The position numbers were made by a program, and so were the translations under genes. 64,000 nucleotides of DNA from Corallococcus macrosporus (GTDB taxonomy: Bacteria > Myxococcota > Myxococcia > Myxococcales > Myxococcaceae): positions 496,001-560,000 of the forward strand of contig NZ_JAFIMU010000006.1 of NCBI RefSeq assembly GCF_017302985.1. Direction: 5' to 3'. This document shows positions 18,224 to 25,061 of this stretch, in pieces (the stretch's first letter is position 1; every line of letters begins with the position of its first letter). The notes beneath the pieces are model-generated. The model worked only from the letters and a program-made list of their open reading frames with translations. It had not been told where the DNA came from and searched no databases.

Positions 18224-18952
18224 ATGCGGCTCCTGGGTGGACTGGTCGCCCTGCTCTGCCTGTCGTGCGCATCTGCGCCGACGCGGTATGCGCAGACGAA
18301 CTCCGCGACCAATGGATGCCTTCGAAATCCCACCTGCTACACGCAGCCAGGGGACGAAGCGTTCCTCCCATGGGTGGACAAGGCCGCCAGGGCGGCAGCG
18401 ACCGCCGGCGCAGCAATGAAGGTGCTGGAGGCGGCGGACGTAGCACGCATCGAGCACCTGCTTGTGGAGTGCTCCAAGGAAGCGAACCGTATCGTCAATG
18501 AACGCGAGTACGGCGAAGGGAAGATCCCGGACGACAAGGAGTGCATGCGAGTGGTCGGCTACAACAAGAACGGGGACCCCATCCGACGGCAGGCCGAACT
18601 CGGGACGATGAAGCACGAGGTTGCCTTCGCATGTGTACGGAGAGAAGTCCTCCGGCTCTTCCCCGAAAATGTCTCGATTGAGCCTCGCTACAGTGGCGAC
18701 GCAAAGTCTGGTGGCCCTGCCTTGACGAACCAATGGACGGGCTCGAAGAAGCCCGACGTCGTCCTTCATGCTACGAACCAGCCGCTCCAGATCCAATGCA
18801 TCTTCGACCTCAAATTCCCGTGCACAGGGAACAGTAAGGCCGAACCGTTCACCAGCGGCGATACTCGAAGACAGATGTCTCGCTATGAGGATCTGGGAGG
18901 AAAGTGCAAGCCCGCCATCATCACGCCCCAGCTTGGAGTTGTGCGTGAATAG
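18224..18952 (+). CDS. SitA-like lipoprotein toxin candidate with PD-DxK nuclease-type C-terminus
   Basis: A 242-aa protein from ATG 18224 (MRLLGGLVALLCLSCASAP); an ATG at 18215 is also in frame. A hydrophobic signal ends in a probable lipobox with Cys15, although position -3 is Cys, not the usual Leu. The middle has conserved-looking CLRNPTCYTQPGDE and ARIEHLLVECSKEANRIVNE segments with several Cys. The C-terminus has KKPDVVLHA, then 13 residues later IFDLKFPC, then QMSRYEDLGGK, which fits the PD-(D/E)xK nuclease pattern. Myxobacterial SitA toxins are lipoproteins with a C-terminal toxin domain, passed between kin by outer-membrane exchange and paired with immunity gene sitI. The following gene is an immunity-type gene, overlapping by 8 bp. 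GC content is visibly lower than in the flanks. Assignment is inference. Confidence 0.7.
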   Translation: MRLLGGLVALLCLSCASAPTRYAQTNSATNGCLRNPTCYTQPGDEAFLPWVDKAARAAATAGAAMKVLEAADVARIEHLLVECSKEANRIVNEREYGEGKIPDDKECMRVVGYNKNGDPIRRQAELGTMKHEVAFACVRREVLRLFPENVSIEPRYSGDAKSGGPALTNQWTGSKKPDVVLHATNQPLQIQCIFDLKFPCTGNSKAEPFTSGDTRRQMSRYEDLGGKCKPAIITPQLGVVRE

Positions 18953-19949
18953 GTATCCATTCCTTCAACACTTTGCCTCTGTACTTCCCAGGGTCCAATT
19001 GGTCGTGCGCATCGTCTTCTACTTGCCGCATGACCACAGAACGCTGGCACCGGTCCTACGACGAACCCTCGACACCTATCTCGCGTTCATTTCTGCCGGT
19101 GGCGGAGCACTGACCTCGGGAGAGGATCCCGACATCAGTGAGGCCGCATTTCCGCTCACGCCTGAGTTCTGGGAGGAAGCCCGACGCCATATCGAGAAAT
19201 CCCGATTCGAGCATCTGGATGAGATGGAGCAGGACTCCTTCTGGTTCCGGACCTTGACCAAGCGGGGCTTCGACACATGGGTTCATCTCATTGGCGGAGA
19301 GTCGGACCCCACTGGCTATGAATTCAGCTTCCGCTCCCGGCTGCCCTGGCGCGAACCCTCGGGTGAGTACAGCGTCCTGAGCGTGAAGGTCCCCATGCAG
19401 TTCCTGGAGGACCAGGGGCCCGAGAAGGCCTTTGAGCTGGCTCAGGCGCTGGCGGAGCCGCTTCCCTTCTCCACGGGCCACGCCGGACTGTCGCTGTCAT
19501 TCACCCGCGGCAGGTCCCGCCTCCTTCCCCTCCTCAAGGACCATCTGGTCCGGCATCCCGGTTGGGATGTTCCTCGCGCGAGCACATGGGGCATGGAAGA
19601 AGGGATCGACGGCATCCACTGGATGACCTTCCTGGGGGCGCCCCTCCTCGACACCCTGGGAGGGCCCAATGCGATCCGCGCCCGGTTGCAGCATCCGGAG
19701 ACCACCGTCCAGGAGCTCACCGGGTGCCGCGCCGTGATCCGCCTGGGGCCCGCTCCGCTGGCGGGCGACACGAAGCTGGGTGAAACGCTGCCGGCGTACC
19801 GCGAGCTGGCCCGGTTCCTGGAACCGTGGCTCATGCCCTCCGCTCCCTTCGTCCCCTTCGAGGGCTACACACCGGAGGAGATGCGCCATTGGTGGCGCCG
19901 CTTCCTGGAGCCGCCCCCAGCGGCCATCTCCGATCCACGCGATGGATGA
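18945..19949 (+). CDS. DUF3396 / type VI-immunity-family protein, probable cognate antitoxin
   Basis: A 334-aa cytosolic protein starting at GTG 18945 (VNRYPFLQHFASVLPRVQ). The frame is open upstream inside the lipoprotein gene, but the overlap of this GTG with the lipoprotein stop (18950-18952) suggests coupled translation. The layout matches DUF3396: RIVFYLPHDHRTLAPVLRRTLDTYLAF at the N-terminus, LPWREPSGEYSVLSVKVP in the middle, GHAGLSLSF, then GIDGIHWMTFLGAPLLDTLGG. DUF3396 members are called type VI immunity proteins in several databases and often follow polymorphic toxin genes. Its expected job here is to neutralise the upstream nuclease-like lipoprotein in the producing cell. A longer start within the upstream gene cannot be excluded. 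Confidence 0.75.
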   Translation: MNRYPFLQHFASVLPRVQLVVRIVFYLPHDHRTLAPVLRRTLDTYLAFISAGGGALTSGEDPDISEAAFPLTPEFWEEARRHIEKSRFEHLDEMEQDSFWFRTLTKRGFDTWVHLIGGESDPTGYEFSFRSRLPWREPSGEYSVLSVKVPMQFLEDQGPEKAFELAQALAEPLPFSTGHAGLSLSFTRGRSRLLPLLKDHLVRHPGWDVPRASTWGMEEGIDGIHWMTFLGAPLLDTLGGPNAIRARLQHPETTVQELTGCRAVIRLGPAPLAGDTKLGETLPAYRELARFLEPWLMPSAPFVPFEGYTPEEMRHWWRRFLEPPPAAISDPRDG

Positions 19950-20078: not shown

Positions 20079-23000
20079 ATGCGGTCACAACGCGCTGTCT
20101 GGAGCGGGCTCCTGCTGTTCGTCACGAGCCTGGGCCTTCTGTCCTGCGGCGGGAACGAGCGCCCGGCACCGGAGGGCGCCCGCTCGGTGCACTCCCGCCT
20201 CGCGACTCCGCCGGACTTCTATGCCACCGCTTCCATGGCGACGGCCCGCGGACAACACGCGGCCGTCCTGCTCCCGGACGGGCGGCTGCTGATCATCAAC
20301 GGCGTCAACAGCGCCGGGTTCGTGACCACGGCGGAGCTGTTCGACCCGGCCACCGGCGCCTGGACCTCCGCGGGCACGACCGGTATCCAGGGCAACGTCA
20401 CGAAGGCCGTGCGGCTGTCCACCGGCAAGGTGCTGGTGCTGACCGACGGCTCCACCGCGGGACGTCTCTACGACCCCGCGACGGGCGCCTGGACCGCCAC
20501 GGGCAACATGTCGACCCCGCGCGGCCTCTTCACGCTCACGCTGCTGACCACCGGCCAGGTGCTGGTGGCGGGGGGGACCGGCCCTGGCGGCGTCCGGCTC
20601 ACGTCGGCGGAGCTGTATGACCCGGCCACCAACGCCTTCGTCCCCACCGGCGCCATGACCCTGGGCCGCAACGCGCACACCGCCACGCGGCTGCGCGACG
20701 GGCGGGTGCTCGCGGTGAGCGGCTTCAGCGGGAGCGGTGAGGTGCCCGGCGCGGACCTCTACAACCCCGCGACCGGCACCTGGACCGCCGTCGCGCCCCC
20801 GCTCGTCCCCCGGCACTACGCCTCCAGCACCCTGCTCCCCGACGGCCGCGTGCTCTTCACGGGCGGCTTCACGGCAACCAACGCGACGAACCAGTCGGAG
20901 CTCTACGACCCGGTGGCCAACACCTGGACCGCGACGGGCAGCCTCGCGTTCGCGCGCGCCAGTCACGCGGCCACGCTGCTGCCCAATGGCCGCGTCCTCG
21001 TCACCGGCGGCGCCGAGTTCCGCGCCTCGCCGCCGCTCGAGTCGGAAATCTATGACCCCGCCACCGGCACCTGGACGGCCGCGGGCACGATGAACGTCGC
21101 CCGGGAGAACCACACCGCGACGCTGCTGCCGAGTGGCAAGGTGTTCATCGCGGGCGGCTTCAACTCGGCCCCGGTCACGACCTTCTCCGCGACGACGGAG
21201 GTCTACGACCCCGCCCTGAGCCGGTGGTCCCCCGCGGGCGCCATGGGCACGCCCCGGACCGACGCGGCGGTGGCGCTGCTGCCCTCCGGCCAGGTGCTCG
21301 TCGCGGGCGGCCGCGGCCAGTTCACCTCGTCCGCCGAGGCGGAGCTGTACGACCGCGCGAGCAATTCCTGGAGCGCCCTGCCCGCGCTCGCCACCCCGCG
21401 CGAGCGCTCCACCGCCACCGTGCTGACCTCGGGGCAGGTGCTCATCGTGGGCGGCCGCAACACCAGCACCTCCACGGCCTCCGTGGAGCGCTTCGATCCG
21501 GCGACCAACACCTGGCTGCCCACCGCGGCGCTGCTGGGCACGCGGCACCTGCACACCGCCACGCTCCTGCCGGATGGCCGGGTGCTCGTCGCCGGTGGCC
21601 AGAGCAACACCACGGTGCTCGCCACCGCGGAGCTGTACGCGCCTGACACGAACACGTGGACCTCGGCCGGCTCGCTCACCACGGCGCGCGCCGGACATCG
21701 CGCCGTGCTGCTGCAGAACGGCTGGGTGCTCGTCGTCGGCGGACACGGCGGCGGCGGCCTGGAGCTGGCCTCGGCGGAGCTCTTCGACCCCGCCACCAAC
21801 ACCTGGGCCCCGGCGGCGAGCCTCGCGGGCGCCCGCGACGAGCTGACGCTGACGCTGCTGCCGTCGGGTCAGGTGCTCGCGGCGGGCGGCATCGCGGCCT
21901 TCGTGGAGCTCACGACCGCGGAGCTGTACACGCCCGCCACGAACACCTGGGCTCCCGCGGCGGCGCTCGCGCAGCCGCGCTGGCTGCACTCCGCGACGCT
22001 GATGCCTGGCGGCAAGGTGCTGGTCGCGGGCGGCATCACCACGAATGGGGACTACGCCAACACGGCGGAGGTCTACGACCCGACGATCGGCCGCTGGCTC
22101 AACGTCGCGGACCCCACCACCGCGGGCGGCCTGTCCGCCGTCGCCCTGCCCTCCGGAGAGGTCCTGCTGTCCGGTGGCCTCGCCACCCCCAACGCCGAGC
22201 TGTTCGACGACACGAGCGCCCTCCCCGCGTGGCGGCCCACCGTGACGAACCCGGCCACGCTCGTCGCCGGCTGCCCCACCGTCCTGGAGGGCCTGCTGTT
22301 CCGCGGCATCTCGGGTGGAAGCACCGGCAGCTACCTGGACTCCCCCACCGACTTCCCGCTGGTGCGGCTGCGGGGCGCCGAGGGCGGCCGCCTCTGGACG
22401 CTCCCCAGCAGCAACACGTCGGAGACCCGCGCGACGGTGACCGTCCCCGCCGGAACCCAGCTGGGCACCTACGGGCTGTCCGTCTTCGCCAACGCCATCC
22501 CCGGTGGACGCATGGTGACCCTCGTCGCCAACCGCCCCCCGACGGCGGCGGATCAGACGGTCACCGTGCCGAAGGACATCGCGGTGGAGCTCGCCCTGAC
22601 CGGCACGGATCCGGACCCCGGCCAGGTGCTGACCTATACGGTCGTCACCCAGCCGCAGCACGGCACGCTCGGCACCAGCGCGCAGGGGATCCTCCAGTAC
22701 ACGCCCGCGCCCGGCTACGTGGGCACCGACAGCTTTACCTACCGCGTGCGGGACTGCGCCGACGACAGCAACGTCGCCACGCTGACCCTCAACGTGGTGG
22801 ACGCCGTTCCGACGCTCACCTGCCCCGCGAACGTCACCGCGGAGGCGACCGGCGCGGACGGCGCCATCGTGAACTACGACCCCGCGGTGCTGGAGCCGGC
22901 GGGGCTGCCGGTGACCTACTCGCAGGCGTCGGGCTCGCGCTTCCCGCTGGGCACCACGACGGTCACCGCGACCTCCACGGGCCTCACCTGCACGTTCACG

Positions 23001-25061
23001 GTGACGGTGCAGGACACCACGGCGCCCGCGCTGACCTGCCCCGCCAACGTCCTGGTGGGTCCGAATGAGCCGGTGACGTTCGAGCCCACGGCCACGGACG
23101 CGGTGACGTCCCCGCCGACGGTGACGTCGTCGCCCGCGTCGGGCAGCACCTTCGCGCCGGGCGCCACGCAGGTCACCGTCACCGCGACGGACGCCGCGGG
23201 CAACACCGCGCAGTGCACGTTCCAGGTCCGGGTCCAGGCGGAGGTCGTGGAGATCGCCGGCGGTGGCTGCGACAGCAGCGGCGGCACCACGTCCGCGCTG
23301 GCGCTCCTCGCCGCGCTGGCGGCCTGGAGTCATTCGCGCCGCCGTCGGAAGCCGGCCCGGGGGAGCTGGGCGCTGGCCGCGCTGCTGGCCACCGTCGCCT
23401 CCCCCGCCGCCTTCGGACAGACCCCCACCAGCCCGTTGCGCCCGCTGGACCTGGAGCGCCTGCGCTTCCAGCCGGCGGCGACGGACTCGATGCTGGTGGA
23501 CACCGGCCGCGTGCTCCCCGAGGGCGGCTACCGCCTGCTCCTCATGGTCAACTACGAGCGCGGCATCCTCCTGCTTCAGGGCAGCGACGGACTGGAGCGC
23601 TCCATCCTCCACTACCGCACCGCGGGCTGGCTGGCTGGCGCGTGGTCGCCGGTGGACCGGTTGGAGTTCTCCGCGAAGCTGCCCGTCATCATCGCGCAGG
23701 GCGGCCATGGCGCGGAGCAGCTGGTGGGCGTGAGCGAGCCGGACTCGTTCGGCCTGGGCACGCCGGAGCTGGGCGTGCGCTACGAGCTGCTGCGGCGCGA
23801 GGAAGGCGCGCCGGTGTTCCTGGGCCTGGGCCTGGACATCGGGCTGCCGGGCGGCTCGGCGGACGCGTTCGGCCGTCAGGCGGGCTGGGCGGGGTTCCAG
23901 TTCGCGCCGCGCGTGTCGGTGAGCCGCGAGCTGGGTCCCGTGGTGCTGGGCGCCAACGCGGGCGTGCGGATCCGCTCGAAGGAAGTGGAGCCGGGCCGCG
24001 ACGTGGGCACCGAGCTGGAGCAGGGCGTGGTGGTGGCCACGCGCGGCAAGGGGCTGCGCGGTGAAATCGCGCTGCAGGCCGCCGAGTCGCTCGTGGAGTC
24101 CGACCTGGCGCTGGAGCTGCTGGGCGGCGTGCGGCTGCCGGTGGGCGCGGGCTTCGAGGCGTTCGCGCTCGCGGGGCACGGCTTCACGGACATCCCGGGC
24201 ACGCCGTCGTTCCGCCTGGGTGCGGGCATCGCGTACGCGAACGAGCCCGAGCCCGTGGACCGCTGCCGCACCGGCCGCAGCCACACGCCGGAGCAGTGCC
24301 CCAACGAGGACGACGACGGCGACGGCGTGGCCAACAAGGACGACCGCTGCCCGCTGGAGGCCGGCTCCGTGGAGAACAACGGCTGCCCGGACAAGGACTC
24401 GGACGGCGACGGCGTGGTGGACCGCGAGGACCAGTGCCCGAACGAAGCCGGTACGGCGCGCGACCGCGGCTGCCCGGCGCCGGACGCGGACAAGGACGGC
24501 GTGCGGGATGACGAGGACGCCTGCCCGAACGAGGCGGGCCCCGCGTCCGAGCGCGGCTGCCCCGTGAAGGACACGGACAAGGACGGCGTGCCGGACAAGG
24601 ACGACGCCTGCCCGAACGAGGCCGGCCCCGCGTCCGAGCGTGGCTGCCCCGCGAAGCAGCAGAAGCCCGAGGAGCCCCAGCCCCAGCCGCCTCCCGAGAA
24701 GCAGCCCGAGGAGACGACGTCGCCGCTGGGCCACATCGTCCAGTTCCCGGTGAACCAGTCCGAGTTCCAGGAGAACGAGCAGCAGCAGTTGGACGCCATC
24801 GCGGACTACCTGAAGGCGAACCCGAAGGTGAACATCCGGATCGAGGGCCACACGGACAACAGCGGTCCGGAGGAAGCCAACCGCACGTTGAGCCAGCAGC
24901 GCGCGAACCGCGTGCGTGCGTACCTCATCCAGAAGGGCATCGCGGGCTCGCGCATGGAGGCGAAGGGCTTCGGCCCCGACCGTCCGCGCGTGTCCAACGA
25001 GACGCCGGAAGGCCGCAGCGCGAACCGCCGCGTGGAGTTCGTGCCCGTGACGGAGCGCTGA
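20079..25061 (+). CDS. Giant fusion: kelch/HYR lipoprotein – MYXO-CTERM-like signal – OmpA-type outer-membrane protein
   Basis: A 1660-aa protein. The N-terminus has a lipoprotein signal (LLSC, Cys23). About 13-14 kelch-type repeats (residues about 48-720; AELYDPATNTW-like) are followed by a cadherin/Ig-like domain (818-907) and two HYR domains (about 911-1054). Then comes GGGC (Cys1064), a hydrophobic stretch ALALLAALAAW, and RRRRK (1087-1091). That order is the plan of a MYXO-CTERM sorting signal, yet it is internal. Directly after it WALAALLATVASPAAFGQ looks like a second signal peptide (cleavage near 1113). It leads into a beta-barrel-like region, four thrombospondin-3-type DxDxDG repeats (about 1404-1525), and a C-terminal OmpA peptidoglycan-binding domain (RIEGHTDNSG, about 1549-1657). 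No ATG/GTG/TTG restart is in frame between the two halves. Surface display plus peptidoglycan anchoring is likely. Confidence 0.85.
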   Translation: MRSQRAVWSGLLLFVTSLGLLSCGGNERPAPEGARSVHSRLATPPDFYATASMATARGQHAAVLLPDGRLLIINGVNSAGFVTTAELFDPATGAWTSAGTTGIQGNVTKAVRLSTGKVLVLTDGSTAGRLYDPATGAWTATGNMSTPRGLFTLTLLTTGQVLVAGGTGPGGVRLTSAELYDPATNAFVPTGAMTLGRNAHTATRLRDGRVLAVSGFSGSGEVPGADLYNPATGTWTAVAPPLVPRHYASSTLLPDGRVLFTGGFTATNATNQSELYDPVANTWTATGSLAFARASHAATLLPNGRVLVTGGAEFRASPPLESEIYDPATGTWTAAGTMNVARENHTATLLPSGKVFIAGGFNSAPVTTFSATTEVYDPALSRWSPAGAMGTPRTDAAVALLPSGQVLVAGGRGQFTSSAEAELYDRASNSWSALPALATPRERSTATVLTSGQVLIVGGRNTSTSTASVERFDPATNTWLPTAALLGTRHLHTATLLPDGRVLVAGGQSNTTVLATAELYAPDTNTWTSAGSLTTARAGHRAVLLQNGWVLVVGGHGGGGLELASAELFDPATNTWAPAASLAGARDELTLTLLPSGQVLAAGGIAAFVELTTAELYTPATNTWAPAAALAQPRWLHSATLMPGGKVLVAGGITTNGDYANTAEVYDPTIGRWLNVADPTTAGGLSAVALPSGEVLLSGGLATPNAELFDDTSALPAWRPTVTNPATLVAGCPTVLEGLLFRGISGGSTGSYLDSPTDFPLVRLRGAEGGRLWTLPSSNTSETRATVTVPAGTQLGTYGLSVFANAIPGGRMVTLVANRPPTAADQTVTVPKDIAVELALTGTDPDPGQVLTYTVVTQPQHGTLGTSAQGILQYTPAPGYVGTDSFTYRVRDCADDSNVATLTLNVVDAVPTLTCPANVTAEATGADGAIVNYDPAVLEPAGLPVTYSQASGSRFPLGTTTVTATSTGLTCTFTVTVQDTTAPALTCPANVLVGPNEPVTFEPTATDAVTSPPTVTSSPASGSTFAPGATQVTVTATDAAGNTAQCTFQVRVQAEVVEIAGGGCDSSGGTTSALALLAALAAWSHSRRRRKPARGSWALAALLATVASPAAFGQTPTSPLRPLDLERLRFQPAATDSMLVDTGRVLPEGGYRLLLMVNYERGILLLQGSDGLERSILHYRTAGWLAGAWSPVDRLEFSAKLPVIIAQGGHGAEQLVGVSEPDSFGLGTPELGVRYELLRREEGAPVFLGLGLDIGLPGGSADAFGRQAGWAGFQFAPRVSVSRELGPVVLGANAGVRIRSKEVEPGRDVGTELEQGVVVATRGKGLRGEIALQAAESLVESDLALELLGGVRLPVGAGFEAFALAGHGFTDIPGTPSFRLGAGIAYANEPEPVDRCRTGRSHTPEQCPNEDDDGDGVANKDDRCPLEAGSVENNGCPDKDSDGDGVVDREDQCPNEAGTARDRGCPAPDADKDGVRDDEDACPNEAGPASERGCPVKDTDKDGVPDKDDACPNEAGPASERGCPAKQQKPEEPQPQPPPEKQPEETTSPLGHIVQFPVNQSEFQENEQQQLDAIADYLKANPKVNIRIEGHTDNSGPEEANRTLSQQRANRVRAYLIQKGIAGSRMEAKGFGPDRPRVSNETPEGRSANRRVEFVPVTER
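20220..22240 (+). repeat. 13-14 imperfect kelch-encoding tandem repeats
   Basis: Within the giant gene, units of about 150 nt recur. Each encodes a pattern like H-T-A-T-L-L-P-(D/S)-G-(R/Q)-V-L-V-A-G-G followed by (A/S)ELYDPATxTW. Units differ enough to look old rather than freshly amplified. They would fold as one or two beta-propellers. Confidence 0.8.

Follow-up and report, generated by a model that had tools for sequence, protein, structure and literature searches.

Fusion of an adhesin gene and a barrel-OmpA gene across a MYXO-CTERM signal and a second signal peptide in Corallococcus macrosporus: a candidate polyprotein

Two genes that lie side by side as separate genes in the other genomes of the genus are joined into one reading frame in a genome of Corallococcus macrosporus, and the joint combines an internal MYXO-CTERM signal with a second signal peptide. 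The frame lies in the window, by which we mean the whole stretch of 64,000 nucleotides that was analysed (contig NZ_JAFIMU010000006.1, positions 496,001 to 560,000). Fusions of the same pair recur within the family. We think it likely that the product is a polyprotein precursor, in which the fused operon would yield a chain with a membrane hairpin and two cuts would release an adhesin and a TraB-like barrel protein.

The frame extends over 1660 codons from the ATG at 20079, without an internal stop (20079-25061, + strand). Translation and domain matches bear out the original prediction that a lipoprotein signal with kelch and HYR domains, then GGGC, a hydrophobic helix and RRRRK, and then an OmpA protein with TSP3 repeats share one frame. 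The order is lipoprotein signal, kelch/Big_9/HYR, MYXO-CTERM, second signal peptide, barrel, TSP3 and OmpA:

20079-25061, + strand: fused reading frame of 1660 amino acids (open-frame reading)
20079-20147, + strand: lipoprotein signal peptide ending in LLSC (Cys23), by eye
20235-22118, + strand: kelch repeats, approximate span (Kelch_4, 2e-69, 11 stretches; span by eye, only the best stretch being placed by the search)
22530-22790, + strand: Big_9 Ig-like domain (domain match, residues 818-904)
23010-23234, + strand: HYR domain, the better of two stretches (domain match, residues 978-1052)
23259-23348, + strand: internal MYXO-CTERM signal of GGGC, hydrophobic helix and Arg cluster (TIGR03901, 24.5 bits, cut-off 20)
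23357-23366, + strand: fusion scar, 60 bp missing relative to split relatives (breakpoint ambiguous by a few bases)
23364-23417, + strand: h- and c-regions of the second signal peptide, ending in AFG (the MYXO-CTERM Arg cluster occupies the place of the former n-region)
23418-25058, + strand: barrel-OmpA half, predicted mature start Gln1114 (domain matches, structure model and residue reading)
23529-24242, + strand: predicted 12-strand outer-membrane barrel, FapF/COG4313-like (moderate model, mean pLDDT 71.5, pTM 0.47)
24744-25028, + strand: OmpA peptidoglycan-binding domain, 3' of the TSP3 repeats (domain match, 1.3e-23)

GGGC corresponds to residues 1061-1064 (23259) and RRRRK to residues 1087-1091. 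A second hydrophobic stretch starts at residue 1096 (23364) and leads to AFG/Q1114 at 23418 (the slash marks the predicted cut); here the C-terminal half reads SWALAALLATVASPAAFG/Q, resembling a second signal peptide. Neither a stop nor an in-frame start separates the halves, as had been claimed: between Cys1064 and Gln1114 the window gene contains no in-frame ATG, GTG or TTG, only CTG, and the nearest in-frame start-type codon is a GTG at 23247, 5' of the MYXO motif. The LLSC motif we take to be a lipobox. Since the adhesin half has both this N-terminal lipobox (20079-20147) and the MYXO-CTERM signal (23259-23348), it may bear lipid at both ends.

With 24.5 bits the MYXO-CTERM signal of the window passes the TIGR03901 cut-off of 20. 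The same model gives weak matches in seven of 14 control genomes, none of them above the cut-off, and on these scores chance can be excluded for the predicted MYXO-CTERM assignment. The window genome contains 43 matches down to E = 10, for 23 of which the ends were read. In line with the original expectation that such a signal is normally terminal, the 20 best-scoring other matches all end at a stop 26-46 residues after the start of the match. The three internal ones (3/23) are the window gene and the loci L021 and L022, and in all three a signal peptide and an OmpA half follow. The window protein thus departs from the terminal position, with 596 residues beyond Cys1064. The myxosortase MrtX is encoded in the same genome (NF040593, 452.5 bits, cut-off 180; 0/14 control genomes above the cut-off). 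L196, the best match to the Pfam CPBP protease family, was rejected as MrtX at 19.2 bits.

The same pair is encoded by two genes in 15/15 other genomes of the genus (TGA, then ATG), with conserved flanks, which confirms the prediction that two secreted proteins have been fused into one precursor and rules out that the fusion is kept throughout the genus. These relatives read ...RRRQNPARGN-stop-D-MRSLFSRMDLPLRTKAQSWALAALL... or similar, one codon separating stop and ATG, and they also carry AFG/Q. The 60 bp that contain the stop, the ATG and the basic n-region in these relatives are absent from the window, and the deletion is in frame; by eye its ends share about 2-3 bases of homology, and flanking substitutions are also present. 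The comparison shows that a predicted two-gene operon was fused by a 60-bp in-frame deletion in the window lineage. Next to the scar Gln is replaced by Arg and Asn by Lys (QN to RK), which adds charge where the n-region was lost; that these two replacements are an adaptation is a guess. Among the named relatives an in-frame stop separates the halves in 11 of 15, three are split in different frames and one, Pyxidicoccus fallax, is fused. In L073 and L074 the split pair overlaps by GTGA, which suggests translational coupling and adds a third type of joint within this family. L074 apparently also starts with a lipobox.

A search of 96 family genomes gave 51 with an orthologue at E<=1e-80, all of which were translated. 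One of them (L155 in G039, 44% identity, no MYXO motif found) was left out as too distant. The resulting 50 orthologues comprise 13 fused ORFs, 25 pairs separated by an in-frame stop and 12 pairs with the halves in different frames. The fused set consists of P. fallax (G056 = L070), three genomes of genus g6, G062, three genomes of g3, a further four of g19 and the window, so that besides the window gene 12 other genomes carry fusions of the pair, at other junctions. The deletions differ in size by eye (60 bp in the window, 57 bp in G062 and 74 bp in g3). On a tree built from the barrel halves, with the joint left out, the fused and split states need six changes, fusion and fission counting alike, and at least five of them are forced by well-supported branches; the count stays at six from 5% to 95% bootstrap. 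A single clade of all fused rows is rejected (p-AU 4e-7). For the window and for G062 the direction is fusion, because split relatives surround both of them in the tree; in the Pyxidicoccus-like group the tree counts accommodate either direction. Two fused orthologues, L077 and L078, still have an in-frame ATG where the former start was or close to it, and other fused ones have further candidate starts; separate translation could therefore persist there. The repeated joining of the same pair suggests that the fused product is cut in the cell to give two proteins again.

The two further fused joints of the window genome, L021 (2740 aa) and L022 (1926 aa), belong to older fusions. L022 is located between the FtsA and FtsZ genes and is therefore probably the orthologue of MXAN_5598 of Myxococcus xanthus, which is placed there in PMC11980579. 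When the L022 joint was searched for across the family, 74 of the 96 genomes gave a match. We read 71 loci (30 as returned, 40 hand-chosen for diverse or split-looking rows, and L021), of which 56 have the fused joint, with the upstream frame open for at least 459 codons and usually to the edge of the stretch; the 15 without an adhesin joint include L163, which ends at a contig end. Alignment A1 comprises 18 fused ORFs, which share 24-68% identity with its first row. L191 and L192, both within the 56, were kept out of it: L191 stops soon after the start of the barrel and has Ser at -3, so that its OmpA half may be short, and the site of L192 reads AQA/Q. In all 18 rows of A1 the MYXO Cys with its two preceding Gly, Ala at -3 and Gln at +1 are invariant.

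Over the 69 fused loci of both families, read by eye, position -3 is Ala in 64, Val in four (L076-L078 and L181) and Ser in one (L191), position -1 is Ala in 61 and Gly in eight, and +1 is Gln in all 69. In 69/69 the n-, h- and c-regions are present and positions -3 and -1 hold small residues, a rule that also helped to place the sites. The window site AFG/Q agrees with this rule for signal peptidase I, for which Gly at -1 is weaker than Ala. In a phylum-wide draw 100 of 117 genomes matched, and of 14 further hand-picked loci ten are fused, three are adjacent split pairs and one stands alone; most were picked because the match spanned the joint, a non-random choice that gives no frequency. One distant fused ORF (L261) lacks Gln at +1. 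The conservation of the Cys and of the signal-peptidase site in the older fusions favours a polyprotein that would be cut in the envelope.

Six genomes of the genus carry fused ORFs of the L021 type (open frames of 2740-3356 aa, L021 being read fully); in eight others the ORF lacks an adhesin joint (L163 being cut by the contig end), some of them showing traces of the joint. L189, L190 and other rows have fused adhesin-OmpA open frames of about 5100-5200 aa. From the L021-type ORF of G006 (L164, L269) about 6.3 kb of adhesin has been lost, with flanks matching on both sides; the remaining ORF begins with its own first residues (MSRTSDD...) and continues directly with the end of the MYXO helix, followed by the second signal peptide and the OmpA half. 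Because the barrel half persists there without the adhesin, it can apparently be exported by the internal signal peptide alone.

According to PMC11980579, internal MYXO-CTERM motifs occur in rare cases. For MXAN_5598 the N-terminal part is proposed there to be processed, a possible gene fusion is noted, and the authors point out its likeness to TraA plus TraB. The protein also appears in a table of vesicle proteins, which does not tell its cut state (PMC4158809). Like MXAN_5598, the window gene has an adhesin, an internal MYXO-CTERM, a barrel and OmpA in one ORF (PMC11980579), including the signal peptide, but it is not located between ftsA and ftsZ; its neighbours with Pfam matches are TsiV-like and HAD-like ORFs. 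The upstream ORF (18768-19946, + strand) has its match in TsiV, a family of immunity proteins for a type VI secretion effector. MXAN_5598 represents a separate, older fusion, whereas that of the window is lineage-specific and has split orthologues; in A1, four rows of the window family are 24-27% identical to the L022 row, which is of the MXAN_5598 type.

In the proposed mechanism, an ancestral operon would have encoded a lipoprotein/kelch adhesin with a C-terminal MYXO-CTERM signal, followed by a TraB-like barrel-OmpA partner. Sec would export the adhesin until the MYXO-CTERM helix halts in the inner membrane with its arginines in the cytoplasm. These arginines would act as the n-region of the second signal peptide, the helix of which would cross back and thereby export the barrel half. 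Signal peptidase I would then cut at AFG/Q1114 and MrtX at Cys1064, leaving a small hairpin in the membrane. The adhesin half would become a MYXO-CTERM protein anchored by lipid at the cell surface. The barrel half would enter the outer membrane, tied to peptidoglycan; both would be made 1:1 and would probably act as a pair, like TraA and TraB. We favour such a precursor with a twice-cut hairpin because MrtX is present, because MrtX cleaves TraA (Guo, Haft and Wall 2025, PMC11980579) and because the TraA/TraB pair is comparable.

Indeed, the TraA/TraB exchange pair also consists of a MYXO-CTERM surface protein followed by a signal peptide-barrel-OmpA protein. It differs in being encoded by two genes with a 4-base ATGA overlap, whereas the window adhesin is of the kelch/HYR type. 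In the window genome the pair L029, two genes with an ATGA overlap, is taken as TraA and TraB, because the end of the first gene matches NF033759, the TraA model, and because the arrangement agrees with the one described in PMC11980579. The TraB model NF033763 matches the C-terminal half of the window protein at 1.9e-52; since its 177.9 bits fall below the cut-off of 700, this half is not TraB. GlyGly-CTERM/rhombosortase and other C-terminal sorting systems share the tripartite signal and the membrane protease, but they have another signature and protease, and their signal is normally terminal (PMC11980579).

For the barrel region, modelled from 16 rows, the best of five models predicts a 12-strand barrel (mean pLDDT 71.5, pTM 0.47; the other four: mean pLDDT 44.9-69.2). 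In a comparison with the PDB the top matches are to the OmpA domain; among matches to the barrel, FapF and a COG4313 channel come first (TM-score by target 0.57-0.69, 14-16% identity). The predicted 12-strand barrel is like those channels, but the window protein has a TSP3/OmpA tail instead. In the model of window residues 1114-1660 the barrel is like that of FapF, an amyloid/polypeptide exporter. The resemblance to FapF raises the idea that such barrel partners might export or dock their adhesins.

The original prediction had also considered a base error or frameshift at the joint, for which homologues with two genes and a stop near 23350 were to be the sign. Such homologues exist in 15/15 genus genomes, but a base error did not stand, as the difference is an in-frame deletion of 60 bp and the 12 other genomes are fused with other junctions. 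An artefact in which the true pair is split and 60 bp were lost in assembly could still draw on these split relatives and on the 17 contigs of the window genome. However, the deletion is a clean multiple of three with short homology at its ends and the QN to RK substitutions beside it, and of the 12 other fused genomes six are single-contig assemblies (G022, G033, G060, G062, G069 and G071) and two have two contigs (G018 and G072), so that we regard an artefact as very improbable.

Only slightly less improbable, and still very unlikely, is a protein that stays uncut, as a two-anchor surface protein or with an autotransporter-like passenger on its barrel. A passenger plus a barrel in a single chain resembles autotransporters, and the barrel model matches a polypeptide exporter, FapF; but two hydrophobic segments round a basic loop would trap such a chain in the inner membrane, old fusions conserve both the Cys and the signal-peptidase site, and the barrel half survives without the adhesin in L164/L269. 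The window fusion could also be recent or even harmful, because it is unique within its genus. To a broken locus, in which a recent lesion leaves one or both halves no longer properly exported in the source strain, we give about as little credence as to the uncut chain. The single occurrence among 16 genus genomes and the lack of any ATG, GTG or TTG between the halves for separate translation agree with it, whereas both halves are open, the frame is kept and the same joint is established elsewhere. Moreover, dN/dS between the window and four split relatives (0.51-0.61 in the adhesin half, 0.16-0.35 in the barrel half) is similar to that of six pairs among the split relatives (0.52-0.59 and 0.12-0.38), which would fit either intact function or a young fusion.

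More tentatively, and a little short of an even chance in our judgement, the joint may represent a recurrently evolved polyprotein cassette. A two-helix hairpin between a myxosortase and a signal-peptidase site would free neighbouring genes to fuse and would deliver an adhesin 1:1 with a dedicated barrel, perhaps its exporter or docking site, with several origins in one family and long retention in others across the Myxococcota. To our knowledge, few bacterial polyproteins with internal export signals have been described. An internal MYXO-CTERM signal is already known from one published example, MXAN_5598; the recurrent fusion and the double signal at the joint appear to be new. A search of the open-licence literature found no account of a second signal peptide or of repeated fusions, and the phrase "second signal peptide" is absent from the main text of PMC11980579.

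Finally, since the fusion is repeated, occurs beside split versions in sister species and involves a protease whose characterisation dates from 2025, it can be tested cleanly whether the fused product is cut into the proteins that the relatives make from two genes. Such cutting would extend the idea of TraA and TraB to a set of adhesin-barrel pairs.
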